Shown here one piece after another: positions 33,003 to 38,325 of a stretch of 64,000 nucleotides of DNA; the stretch's first letter is position 1, and each line of letters opens with the position of its first letter. Origin of the DNA: Cyanobium sp. Morenito 9A2 (GTDB lineage Bacteria; Cyanobacteriota; Cyanobacteriia; PCC-6307; Cyanobiaceae); assembly GCF_024345575.1 (NCBI RefSeq), contig NZ_JAGQBJ010000003.1, positions 124,001 to 188,000 on the forward strand, in the 5' to 3' direction. A program made the position numbers and the translations under genes. The notes under the pieces were generated by a model, which was not told the DNA's origin, ran no database searches, and saw only the letters and a list, made by a program, of their open reading frames with translations.

Positions 33003-34107
33003 GGAACCGCTCGATCGGGCCCAAGGGGCCCTCGATCGGGGTGATTACGGCACTGCTTTGCGGTTGCTGGAACCCCTCGCCGGCCTCCACGGCCCGCGGA
33101 CGGCGATCGGCGGTCGCCTGCGGCTGTTGATGGCCACGGCTTTGATGGGCCATGGGGATGGGGACCAGGCCCTGAAGTTGTGCCGCTCCCTGCGCCTCTG
33201 CGCGGATCCCGACCTTCGCCTGGAGGGCAAAGCCCTGGAGATGGTGCTGGAAGCTCCCGTGCTGGAGCGTCCCCGGAACTGGTCGTTGACCTTGCCGTCC
33301 ATCGGGGAGGTGGAGGCACTCCAGGGACGTGTGAAGGGGCGCTCCTCTGGGCGCCAACGCGCCCGCGCAGAGCTTCCACCATCACCACCGGTGGGTCCCA
33401 CCAAGGCGCCCTGGGGTTTTGCCGTCGTCTTGGGCGTGCTGCTCCTGCTGGCGGCGTTGCTGGGGGGGTGTATGCAGGTGAGCACCACCGTGCGCTTCCC
33501 CGCACCTGGCCGGCTTCAGTTGGAGCAAACCTTCTCCAGCACCACCGGCCAGAGGCTGCCTTGGCAGGACCAGTTCGCGCAGGCGATCCGTGGCCTGGCC
33601 CAGCGGCAGGTTCGCCGCGGCGGTGATCTGGCGGTGCTCAGCCCCGTGCTCTGTGCTGAGGAAGCCGCCGCTTGGCTTCAGGAGAGCGTGATGGTGGCGG
33701 CCCGGTTGGGGGGGGTGGCGCTGCCGCCGCCGGTGCTTTCCCTCCAGGAGCGCAATTGGTTGATTGGCGTCCGCCAGCAGTTGCTGCTCGAGCTCGATCT
33801 CAGCACGCTGCGCGTCTGGCCGGGGGTGGAGCTGCAGGTGCGCTTCGAGCCCTTGGCCCTCGCCTCGGTGCGGCGAGCCCAGCCCTTGCGGCCTCTGGCC
33901 GAAAGGGATTCCGGCCCGGGCACCAAGCGGGGGGCGGTGATCTGGTCCCTGAGCAGCGGCTCGCTCAATCGCCTGGAGCTGAGCGCCTGGCGCTGGAGCC
34001 GCCTGGGCCTGGGCTTCGTGGGGATTGTGCTTCTGCTGGTGCTTGCCTTGGTCCTCCAGCGGCTGCGCTGGCAGGCGGGCTTTCGCTTGCCAGAGCTGCC
34101 GGCCTAG
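32995..34107 (+). CDS. DUF3153 protein fused to an N-terminal TPR-like domain
   Basis: 370 residues. Residues 1-90 form a helical repeat ([20 protein letters not shown]). A Pro/Arg linker leads to one TM helix ([19 protein letters not shown]), then a DUF3153-like beta-rich domain ([20 protein letters not shown]) and a second TM near the C-terminus ([20 protein letters not shown]). The residues LLGGC look like a lipobox but are internal, about residue 160, so lipidation would need a second start or is vestigial. Begins 8 nt before the argB stop. Its stop shares the bases CTAG (34104-34107) with the priA stop. Confidence 0.82.
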
Positions 34108-36470
34108 AGCTCCAGGGGATCGGGATCGATCGCCAGGCCCACTCCCTGGGGCAGGCCCTGACGTAGCACCGTCTCAGGAGGTAGCGGCAGGGGGCTGCCG
34201 GCGGGGCCGTGGAGCAGCAGTTGCCAGCGGCTGCGGCCCGCCACCCGGGTGACGGGTGCCGGTGCCGGACCGATCAGCTGCCAGCCGGCGGCGGTGACCT
34301 GGGGGGCGATGCGCTCGGCCAGGGTGGTGGCCGCCGTTGCCGTGGCCGTGGCGGAGACCCCCACCAGCCGCAGCAGGGCAGCACGGCTGAAGGGCACCAG
34401 GGCCGCCTGGCGACGCAGCGCCAATTCCTCCTCCAGGAAGCGCTCGTAGCGTCCATCGACCAGATGGCGGATCACGGGATGGTCGGGGCAATAGGTCTGA
34501 ACGATGACCTCCCCCGGCCGTTCGCCTCGGCCGGCCCGGCCCGCCAACTGCAACAGCAGCTGCAGGCTCTGTTCGCTGGAGCGCAGATCAGGCCGATGCA
34601 GCAGACCATCGGCCGCCAGCACTGCCGCCAGGGTGACCCCGGGCAGGTCCATGCCCTTGGCCAGCATCTGGGTCCCCACCAGCACGTCGGCTTCACCGGC
34701 GGCGAACTGCTCCAGCAGGCGCCGATGTCCCCCTTGGCTTCGGGTGGTGTCGCGGTCAAAACGCAGCACCCGCAAGCCTTCGAGCTCGATCCCCAGTTGC
34801 TCCATCACCCTTTGGGTACCAGCGCCGAAGGGCTTGAAGGCGCTGGAGCCACAGGCGCCACAGCGCTCCTCAATGGCCTGGCGGTGATCACACCAGTGGC
34901 AGCGCAGCCAGTCGCCGGAGCGGGCTGAGCGGTGCACCGTCAGGGCGACATCGCAGTGGGGGCATTGCACCACTTCACCGCAACTGCGGCAGCTCAAGAA
35001 GCTGCTGTACCCGCGTCGAGGCACCAGCACAACGGCCTGTTCGCCCAGGTCGCGCACGCGCTCCAGGCGCTCCATCAGCGGCCGGCTCAGGAGGCGTCGG
35101 TGCCCTTCCACCAGTTCCGCTCGCATGTCCACCACCCGCACCGGCGGCAGGGGGCGCTGGCCGATGCGCTCGCTCAGGCGCACCAGGCTGGTGGCCCCAG
35201 CGCCCTTCTGCTGGCAGGACAGCCAGGTTTCCAGTGACGGCGTGGCGCTCCCCAGCAAGAGGCGGGCGCCGCTGCGGTGGGCGCGCCTGCGGGCCACATC
35301 GCGGGCGTGGTAGCAGGGCATCGGTGCGTCCTGCTTGTAGGAACTGTCATGCTCCTCATCGAGAGCGATCAACCCCAGGCCACTCAGGGGCAGGAACACC
35401 GCCGAACGCGTACCCACGACCACCACGGGCTGGAGGGGGTCCGCCCCCAGGCAGCGGCGCCAGCTGGCGATGCGCTGGGCTTCGCTCAGACCACTGTGGT
35501 ACTCGACGATCGCTCCAGCGAAGCGAGCCTTGAAGCGATCGAGCAGTTGCGGCACCAGCCCGATCTCTGGGGTGAGCACCAGCACGCTTTGACCTGCCGC
35601 CAGGATCCGGGCGCAGGCCTGCAGATACACCTCTGTTTTGCCGGAGCCAGTCACCCCCCAGAGCAGCAGGGCTCCCCCCGGCGGGGTGGCCGCCAGCCGG
35701 TCCAACGCCTGGCGCTGGGCTTCGTTGGGCGCCCGTGCGGGCTCGCTTGGCCTTGGGCTGCCTTGTGATCCTGCGGGCGCGGCGCCCCCCAATGCGAGCC
35801 ATTCAGCACTGCCCTCAGCCACGGCCCTGCGACGCAGACGCCCCTGACGCTCGAGCCCTTCCACCACCGAGCGGCTGAACCGCCCCGCGCCGGTCAGTGT
35901 GCTGAGCCAGGCCCGCCCGCCCCGTTGTTCCAGTAGCTCGAGCAACTCCCCCTGGCGGGGGGTGATGCCAGGGGGCCTTTCGCCGGCTGGCTCAGGGTCG
36001 TTCTCCGGCTGGGGAGCTGGCCCGGCGGCGACCTTGGGCGGAGGTGGCAGCAGCTCCACCAGCCAGCGGTTACGGGACGGTCCAGACCGGCGCTCGCTCC
36101 GCTGGCCCAACCAGCCAGGGGGCAGCGCTGTTTTGAGAGTCTTGAACAGGCTGGTGTGGCAGTCCTCCGCCACCTCCGCCAGCAAGGCGCGCCAATGGGG
36201 GTCCACCGCGGCGCTTTGGTGCAGCGCCTCGACCGGTTGGAGGCGATGGGGCTCCAGCTCCGGCGGCAGTTGCTCAAGCCCCTCCACCACAAGGCCTATG
36301 TGGGGTCGACCCCTCAGTCGCACGCGTACCAGATCGCCACAGGCCAGGGGCAGACCCTGGGGATTGGCGTAGGTGAAGAGACGGCCTTCACGCCCCGCCT
36401 CCAGCCAAACGTGTAGCCAGGCGGGGCCAGGGGTCACCACCTCGGATCGCTCCAACCTTGCAAAGCCCAC
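34104..36470 (-). CDS. priA: Primosomal protein N' (replication-restart helicase)
   Basis: 788 residues from GTG 36470. 3'-5' helicase that reloads the replisome at stalled forks. Helicase motifs are complete: GVTGSGKTEVYL (Walker A), DEEHDSSYKQDAPMPCYHAR (DEEH and following) and GSATPSLETW. Zinc-binding cysteines are in CRSCGEVVQCPHCDVAL and CHWCDHRQAIEERCGACG. LVGTQMLAKGMDLPG is motif V. The N-terminal DNA-binding domain starts LHVWLEAGREGRLFTY. A 100-residue Pro/Gly insertion around residues 140-180 and again near 240 makes it longer than E. coli PriA. Confidence 0.95.
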   Translation of the reverse strand: MGFARLERSEVVTPGPAWLHVWLEAGREGRLFTYANPQGLPLACGDLVRVRLRGRPHIGLVVEGLEQLPPELEPHRLQPVEALHQSAAVDPHWRALLAEVAEDCHTSLFKTLKTALPPGWLGQRSERRSGPSRNRWLVELLPPPPKVAAGPAPQPENDPEPAGERPPGITPRQGELLELLEQRGGRAWLSTLTGAGRFSRSVVEGLERQGRLRRRAVAEGSAEWLALGGAAPAGSQGSPRPSEPARAPNEAQRQALDRLAATPPGGALLLWGVTGSGKTEVYLQACARILAAGQSVLVLTPEIGLVPQLLDRFKARFAGAIVEYHSGLSEAQRIASWRRCLGADPLQPVVVVGTRSAVFLPLSGLGLIALDEEHDSSYKQDAPMPCYHARDVARRRAHRSGARLLLGSATPSLETWLSCQQKGAGATSLVRLSERIGQRPLPPVRVVDMRAELVEGHRRLLSRPLMERLERVRDLGEQAVVLVPRRGYSSFLSCRSCGEVVQCPHCDVALTVHRSARSGDWLRCHWCDHRQAIEERCGACGSSAFKPFGAGTQRVMEQLGIELEGLRVLRFDRDTTRSQGGHRRLLEQFAAGEADVLVGTQMLAKGMDLPGVTLAAVLAADGLLHRPDLRSSEQSLQLLLQLAGRAGRGERPGEVIVQTYCPDHPVIRHLVDGRYERFLEEELALRRQAALVPFSRAALLRLVGVSATATATAATTLAERIAPQVTAAGWQLIGPAPAPVTRVAGRSRWQLLLHGPAGSPLPLPPETVLRQGLPQGVGLAIDPDPLEL

Positions 36471-36563
36471 ACCAGTTTCTTAGGATGGCGCTGTTGGGCA
36501 GCTCTCAAGGCTGCCGTCGGAAACCCGCAGAGTTCCGTCCAGAGGGAAGACCTGAAGCGAGCG

Positions 36564-36728
36564 CCTGGCGGAGTTTCACTCCCCATCGGCCTCCCGGTCT
36601 GCGAACACCCTGACAACACTGCTGGGCTTTGGCCCCTGACCACTGTGTTCGTTTTTCTCAGGTTGGCTTCGCTTTTTTTGTACGTTTAACGCCGCCGAGA
36701 TCCTTTTGTTCCTGGTGGAGTTTCATTC
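36564..36728 (+). repeat. Direct repeat pair in the rpoD leader
   Basis: CCTGGCGGAGTTTCACTC at 36564-36581 and CCTGGTGGAGTTTCATTC at 36711-36728: 16 of 18 bases match, and both differences are C to T. The centres are 147 nt apart. They lie upstream of the rpoD start and could be operator sites or duplicated ribosome-binding-like sequence (GGAG in both). I see no third copy in the window. Confidence 0.55.
36615..36656 (+). terminator. Terminator-like hairpin in the rpoD leader
   Basis: AACAC (36615-36619) pairs with GTGTT (36645-36649) and GGGC pairs with GCCC inside it around a TTTG loop; CG then TTTTT follows at 36652-36656. The outer stem is interrupted by a bulge. If active it would end a short leader transcript or attenuate rpoD. 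A small RNA ending here is possible but unproven. Confidence 0.35.
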
Positions 36729-36788
36729 GCCAGGTTTGTTTCGTGAGTCCTGCGTCCAGTGGCGCTCCTGACTTGATTTGACGACTTC

Positions 36789-36812
36789 GCCCCGTTGGGG
36801 CTCCTTTGTTTG
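36789..36812 (+). promoter_or_regulatory. GC hairpin with T-rich tail, possible attenuator close to rpoD start
   Basis: Perfect 5-bp stem GCCCC/GGGGC with a GTT loop (36789-36801), followed by TCCTTTGTTTG. It ends about 40 bases before the rpoD ATG. The stem is short for a strong terminator, so a 5' UTR structure affecting translation or partial termination is more likely. Confidence 0.3.
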
Positions 36813-36852
36813 GCGTGTTCACGCGCTCTCACCCCCCCTGCCTTCGCTCACC

Positions 36853-38325
<1,473 letters not shown>

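Follow-up and report, generated by a model that had tools for sequence, protein, structure and literature searches.

Structured RNAs restricted to a lineage have been described in the leaders of several cyanobacterial genes, and excerpts of PMC2864571 name the glnA, Downstream-peptide, psaA, psbNH and PhotoRC elements among them. A precedent on a finer scale is the J3-2 segment of the TPP riboswitch, which according to excerpts of PMC3764141 forms a T-loop (U39-A43) in which A41 makes a conserved A-minor contact. The words 'rpoD' and 'sigma' are absent from the available portion of the text of PMC2864571. The locus studied here is likewise absent from the portion of PMC2518516 that holds its ncRNA Table 1, and it is not named in the available portion of PMC1242208, where an unlabelled cluster 229 (MIT 9313 and WH 8102, 161 nt) might be the same locus. 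A literature search of main-text passages turned up no description of a conserved structured RNA before a cyanobacterial rpoD, although an earlier mention is possible.

The principal sigma factor serves most promoters in the cell, and picocyanobacteria, the dominant oceanic phototrophs, have streamlined genomes and few regulatory proteins. The predicted rpoD leader of Cyanobium sp. Morenito 9A2 (the host genome) begins with an RNA element that is conserved, structured, present in a single copy, fixed in place and preceded by a promoter match. It represents a structured RNA family without an Rfam 15 counterpart and possibly an undescribed case of RNA control over a master gene of transcription.

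Locus, promoter and distribution

The element lies in the window (the whole stretch of 64,000 nucleotides that was analysed), within the intergenic gap 36471-36852 between the divergent genes priA and rpoD (Table 1). An earlier interpretation of this DNA made without database searches, the sequence-only reading, had placed the gap ahead of the principal sigma-factor gene, and the assignment is backed by a match above cut-off to the RpoD equivalog NF005643. In Prochlorococcus, PMM0496 is the major, group 1 sigma factor, as stated in excerpts of PMC2921402. The N-terminal extension of the host RpoD (36853-37380) is long and rich in Ala, Lys, Ser and Thr, and the stretch ahead of the conserved region varies widely in length between relatives.

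Table 1. Features of the rpoD leader and its flanking genes, in window coordinates
Feature	Position	Strand	Details	Basis
priA, divergent neighbour	34104-36470	-		TIGR00595, 553 bits, cut-off 230
Conserved putative promoter	36458-36486	+	TTGCAA (36458-36463), 17-nt spacer, TAGGAT (36481-36486)	pattern match
Predicted transcription start	36493	+	G of conserved GTTGG, 7 nt after -10 box	inferred
Conserved structured RNA element	36493-36625	+	5' end of rpoD leader, ~133 nt	covariance model R1
P1 hairpin	36497-36515	+	36497-36503 with 36509-36515	5/7 pairs with two-sided changes; 95.0% of cells paired
P2 hairpin	36518-36537	+	36518-36522 with 36533-36537 in host genome	94.5% of cells paired
Pseudoknot 5' strand	36527-36530	+	GCAG, in P2 loop	pairs with 36619-36622
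P3 arm	36540-36612	+	outer helix 36540-36546/36608-36612, inner helix 36549-36552/36596-36599, variable apex	pairing counts, compensatory swaps
Repeat copy 1	36564-36585	+	in variable P3 apex	19/22 with copy 2
T-loop-like UGCGA	36600-36604	+	leads into 7-nt one-sided bulge (36601-36607)	motif counts
Terminator-like hairpin	36615-36656	+	AACAC 36615-36619/GUGUU 36645-36649, inner GGGC/GCCC, U5 tract 36652-36656	
Pseudoknot 3' strand	36619-36622	+	CUGC, element 3' end	columns 138-141 of alignment A1
Repeat copy 2 and hairpin	36711-36741	+	repeat 36711-36732; 9-bp hairpin 36711-36734, then TTTGTTT	z -4.7
Short GC hairpin	36789-36812	+	stem-loop 36789-36801, plain 5-bp stem, T-rich tail	z -2.4
rpoD, principal sigma factor	36853-38325	+	ATG 36853	NF005643 equivalog RpoD, 720 bits, cut-off 500

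The sequence-only reading singled out the right stretch, although it missed both the promoter and the element that starts 7 nt behind it. The pattern TTG-N19-21-TANNNT is found directly 5' of the element in every one of the 93 loci that extend far enough to be read, against a mean of 3.0 (range 0-7) in shuffles, and a looser promoter pattern sits at an identical distance from the element in 86 of these 93. We take 36458-36486 as a putative sigma-70-like promoter of a predicted rpoD leader transcript, whose start is placed at about 36493 because the distance from the promoter and the sudden rise in conservation at GTTGG both point there. From the predicted start to the rpoD ATG, the leaders span 272-771 nt with a median of 357 nt (88 of 94 loci in which a start was found), including a spacer between element and rpoD that has a median of 223 nt and is little conserved from clade to clade. 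The -35 box falls inside the first priA codons as called (GTG 36470; overlap 36458-36470); probably either the true priA start lies further in or the priA and rpoD promoters overlap.

In a DNA search at E up to 1, 241 of 300 genomes of the family matched, many of them weakly, and the strong matches mostly covered query positions 6-152, corresponding to 36476-36622. In an alignment of 80 rpoD loci from relatives, the promoter is followed immediately by the conserved element. The covariance model R1 scores the host element at 116 bits (E 2.4e-33), a value to be read with the host sequence itself being among the building set of the model. At E 1e-4, R1 matches 264 of the 300 family genomes, and 187 of the 197 that are at least 90% complete, with one match each; the 36 family genomes without a match include incomplete ones. 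Of 388 genomes drawn across the class, 286 had no match; every one of the 64 family members listed matches (worst E 2.8e-6), and the 324 genomes from outside the family yielded no credible match (best E 9.9e-4, with 18 reaching E 0.1). Carriers include Prochlorococcus, marine Synechococcus and Cyanobium. The WH7803 copy is locus L067, at about 613.69-613.82 kb of CT971583.1, and in genome G151, which we take to be Prochlorococcus MED4, the element lies at 470428-470563 on the minus strand. Weak extra model matches in the host genome (contigs C1 and C26) overlap long reading frames and were taken as chance. A pattern match in one viral contig had no model match at that place, and a second pattern found no match in viral contigs, plasmids or phages.

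To the surroundings of the element we applied a model scan of 99 loci, a set without L153, in which 94 loci hold one element each. The five loci without a match (L040, L060, L065, L076 and L088) were taken as truncated because their rpoD match starts only 7-545 nt from the locus start. All 94 loci with the element have rpoD downstream on the same strand, and all 92 with enough sequence have divergent priA upstream. Since most of the 94 were retrieved by way of rpoD, the unbiased check of this arrangement is provided by whole-genome model matches, which show the rpoD and priA placement in 17 of 17 cases; among 29 more, rpoD was found in 27 and priA in 29.

Seven of the 36 misses were inspected at the level of the locus. 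In genus g9, neither the model nor a core-motif scan found an element in five genomes that are 95-99% complete and have rpoD; priA still flanks it on the opposite strand in L168-L170, and L166 and L167 hold no priA. The g9 rpoD open frames are long (571-667 aa). Genome G050 (L165) has only a 9.9-bit trace, in the correct gap, and in G068 the contig starts inside rpoD.

Architecture and covariation of the element

The element consists of two small hairpins, P1 and P2, and a longer arm, P3, which is spanned by a pseudoknot between the P2 loop and the element 3' end. P2 is nearly invariant, with no pair changed on both sides; it is near-constant pairing alone that points to this hairpin. In P3, the outer helix has 99.7% and the inner helix 91.9% of cells paired, and compensatory swaps give three pairs with E < 0.001 (over 30 pairs). 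In the host P3, the usual CCCC is one C short. By energy, the single sequence folded no better than shuffles (z -0.43), and the minimum-energy fold of the host sequence shows the GCAG/CUGC pairing together with P1 and the greater part of P3, but lacks P2.

Pairing was counted in alignment A1, which holds 52 of 60 de-duplicated elements and 30 proposed pairs (P1, P2, the outer and inner helices of P3, and the pseudoknot). Two damaged-looking elements (L046 and L100) had been removed before the 60 were picked, and eight others with long inserts or odd ends (L027, L041, L073, L093, L087, L062, L112 and L101) were left out of A1. Standard pairs occupy 92.5% of 1550 cells in the 52 sequences, compared with 87.7% in shuffled and 29.9-43.6% in slid alignments, and 93 cells are changed on both sides, compared with 30.4 after shuffling. 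One of the five measures, the number of pair types, fails to beat shuffles (34 versus 31.6, with 58 of 500 shuffles reaching 34).

Because related sequences can mislead pair counts, we also used a phylogeny-aware null in which columns were simulated along a tree. The set of 74 sequences for this analysis comprised the 94 elements minus L046, L100, 13 sequences of clade g5, 5 high-light sequences and identical rows. The pseudoknot column pair 43-138 is the top covarying of 8646 pairs, with an E of 0.01 over all pairs and 3e-5 over the 30 proposed; eight of these 30 reach E < 0.003 over the 30. Seven of the best 11 covarying pairs fall inside the structure; the four outside it are 96-137, which ranks second, 111-125, 120-124 and 53-131. 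In the 52 sequences, five of the top six covarying pairs belong to the proposed structure, including two pseudoknot pairs, and the first, 111-125, is outside.

Individual replacements can be followed in named loci. The pseudoknot strands GCAG/CUGC are swapped for ACAG/CUGU in L078, L099, L071, L092 and L112, and in P3 CAG/CUG is swapped for CAC/GUG in L059, L096 and L103. The set of four core pseudoknot pairs is complete in 64 of 76 loci of the main type; three of the pairs form in 10 loci, two in one and none in one. The pseudoknot pairing of 80.6% in A1 is somewhat flattering because the weaker-pairing L041, L073, L093 and L101, which form three of the four core pairs, were left out; L027 ends in CUCC against GCAG. 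In addition, the pseudoknot had been proposed, before the counting, on the basis of complementary strands in a few of these very sequences, so these counts are not independent of the proposal, and the separate slid control of the pseudoknot is less clean, a slide of +1 giving an equal number of two-sided cells (27) and a score of 0.196 versus 0.223.

On its 3' side, P3 has a bulge whose length is exactly 7 nt in 93 of 94 sequences. Together, the preceding U and the first nucleotides of the bulge read UNNGA in 90 of 94 (UGAGA in 50, UGCGA in 34), with G as fourth base in 93 and A as fifth base in 92 of the 94, and A, C or U as third base. The bulge would fit a T-loop of the kind that PMC3764141 describes in TPP and FMN riboswitches. 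The structure that we counted pairs the U of UNNGA with A36548 at the base of the inner helix; a T-loop would be an alternative reading of this pair, in which the U would lie outside it. A kink-turn reading of the bulge was weighed on paper and dropped.

Two clades depart from the main type. In the marine clade g5 (13 loci: L144-L150, L081, L084, L085, L089, L095 and L111) and in high-light Prochlorococcus (5 loci: L151, L152 and L154-L156), a long-range helix that closes P3 (CUGnGC/GCnCAG; AAGUA/UACUU) takes the place of P2 and the pseudoknot, and P3 is kept together with its bulge. The main-type pseudoknot, as aligned in these 18 loci, has no pairs in 16 and two pairs in 2. Judging from these small alignments, pairing between the 5' part and the 3' end seems to be kept by different means across clades.

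Several features of the leaders were seen in single clades or loci. In the five high-light Prochlorococcus loci, P3 is directly followed by ACUUUUUACUUU (ACUAUUUACUUU in L151), and a clear AAGGAG Shine-Dalgarno sequence precedes the ATG, which was not seen in the other clade alignments inspected. In the freshwater loci L009, L018, L023 and L028, the spacer is enlarged by tandem hairpin units of the GGCTTCGGCC or GGCTCCAGCC type. L101, from Prochlorococcus, has a strong U-tailed hairpin, CATTGTCTT...AAAGACAATG TTTTTG, about 63 nt past the element.

Candidate functions of the leader

The best explanation, to which we assign a probability of roughly 0.6, is that the element forms a structured leader of the rpoD mRNA that acts in cis and is built like a riboswitch. 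A sigma-70-like promoter would start the transcript at about 36493, and its first ~133 nt would fold compactly into P1, the pseudoknot of P2 loop and 3' end spanning P3, and P3 with its T-loop-like 7-nt bulge. We infer action in cis: the fold would work on the ~230 nt of leader that follow and set the completion, retention or translation of the rpoD mRNA. The input would probably be the sensing of a metabolite, an ion or a protein, as in riboswitches and autogenous leaders.

The main rival to a cis-acting leader is a separate trans-acting sRNA of about 135-165 nt that has its own promoter, ends at or just after P3 and lies beside rpoD incidentally. Its beginning would be accounted for by the conserved promoter before the element. 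Its end could be the U-tailed hairpin directly behind the element in the host genus, and in high-light Prochlorococcus ACUUUUUACUUU or a near variant after P3 could itself be a terminator; over the family, however, T-tailed hairpins behind the element are not enriched (11 of 94 leaders; shuffles: mean 6.9, range 1-14). The poorly conserved spacer ahead of rpoD would also suit an independent RNA, yet a second sigma-70-like promoter behind the element, proximal to rpoD, occurs no more often than expected by chance (4 of 88 loci; shuffles: 8.5, range 2-16), whereas the same pattern picks up the promoter ahead of the element in 93 of 93. A single transcript running through the element into rpoD is favoured because there is neither an excess of terminators nor a second promoter beyond chance. 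The place and strand before rpoD are unbroken wherever the element is found, and the G151 locus is not among the ncRNAs in the available portion of Table 1 of PMC2518516. We consider a trans-acting sRNA rather unlikely.

The element could instead be a passive 5' stabiliser, its start hairpin and compact knot keeping RNase E off the rpoD mRNA without any sensing. Three observations would sit well with such a shield: P1 lies only about 4 nt behind the predicted start, a conserved expression platform was not found, and genus g9 manages without a recognisable element. A plain stem would suffice for this protection, however, whereas the element has a fixed 7-nt bulge (93/94) with a near-constant G (93/94) and A (92/94) and a covarying pseudoknot, which argue for a specific pocket or contact and make a mere stabiliser unlikely in our judgement. 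The fixed bulge and knot suggest that the element may sense a signal.

The sequence-only reading had rested its proposal of leader attenuation, a small RNA or autoregulation on a repeat and two T-tailed hairpins. The 18-nt repeat exists (16 of 18 positions identical, 147 nt apart) and extends to 19 of 22; no third copy of its core, GGAGTTTCAYTC, is present in the host genome. Repeats of 16/18 also turn up in 1 of 400 dinucleotide shuffles and in 3 of 167 equal-sized pieces of the 64-kb window, which makes this one only mildly unusual. Conservation of the repeat in relatives, which that reading had proposed to check, failed in the sister genome L004, the sole other genome of the host genus found. 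Both hairpins exist as well, but the first, at 36615-36656, has an imperfect stem and a folding energy like that of shuffles (z -0.42), and a terminator scan of the leader found two sites versus 0.9 +/- 1.0 in shuffles. The strongest T-tailed hairpin of the leader is the one at repeat copy 2 (36711-36734), which was absent from that list; L004 has at the same site an 8-bp hairpin of other sequence with no T tract, as read from the alignment. In L004, a single swap of A-U for G-C keeps the outer stem of the first hairpin paired (again an alignment reading), so conservation of this hairpin holds within the genus but, given the counts above, not across the family. The setting that had been proposed thus gains a conserved structured RNA in the leader, although the cited repeat and hairpins are not what supports it.

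A classic attenuator, with the hairpins at 36615-36656 and 36789-36812 controlling rpoD and the repeat as a regulatory motif, is improbable, the compensatory change that keeps the first hairpin in L004 and the overlap of this hairpin with the pseudoknot being set against the failure to find terminator hairpins across the family and a repeat that is unconserved in L004 and only mildly unusual.

For a cis-acting leader, a more limited antiterminator/terminator switch is possible in the host genus because the pseudoknot 3' strand doubles as the 5' arm of the first hairpin, which is kept in L004. In such a genus-specific switch, the folded element would block termination at the U-tailed hairpin and the unfolded element would allow it. 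The 3' element strand shows no excess complementarity to downstream sequence, with p < 0.05 in 0 of 93 leaders and a mean z of +0.32 (p of 0.45 in the host and 0.085 in L004), so a terminator switch cannot be the general mechanism of the family; a general terminator/antiterminator switch, without support over 93-94 leaders, was rejected.

A bolder version of the cis-acting leader, which we put forward tentatively and with the odds against it, is a new riboswitch class of Prochlorococcus, marine Synechococcus and Cyanobium, in which a T-loop pocket would sense a central metabolite or ion and set the amount of housekeeping sigma factor.

In all 88 measured leaders, the predicted start and rpoD are separated by 272 nt or more, with a fold that is held by compensatory changes at the head. 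If the element is regulatory, organisms with few protein regulators would be controlling their global transcription through RNA, and if the riboswitch reading is true, the whole transcription capacity of the cell would be tied to one signal. Even as a mere stabiliser or sRNA, it would be an RNA family missed by Rfam-based annotation.

Comparison with known RNAs

At gathering scores, Rfam 15 has no match in the window and none in the loci of five relatives. When E values up to 10 were admitted for the host region and WH7803, matches appeared on the minus strand only and far below gathering (3 + 1 matches); these minus-strand matches, to a hairpin ribozyme, a Leptospira sRNA, a CRISPR repeat and a snoRNA, were taken as chance. 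The sole match to 6S RNA (RF00013) in the host genome is on contig C24, away from the rpoD leader. Membership in the TPP riboswitch family (RF00059) was rejected, there being no match at E up to 10 in the host region and WH7803; the true TPP riboswitch of the host genome was found on contig C21.

The likeness to the TPP riboswitch lies in a stem, UGAGA, 3 nt and a C-rich strand pairing with a G-rich one, as in the pyrimidine-sensing arm. The host TPP copy reads CUGAGA-UCA-CACCC, against CUGNGA-NNN-CCC in the rpoD element. The rpoD element differs in that the pyrophosphate-sensing P4/P5 arm is missing and in that the third loop base varies (A, C, U), in contrast to A41 of TPP. The likeness is one of a single motif only.

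The Yfr family and 6S RNA resemble the rpoD element as short structured RNAs of the same organisms. The cyanobacterial leaders of PMC2864571 differ from it in being named for other genes and in being represented in Rfam, by models without a match at the rpoD leader; as far as the excerpts of that source describe them, they are, like the rpoD element, lineage-restricted structured RNAs in the leader of a gene.
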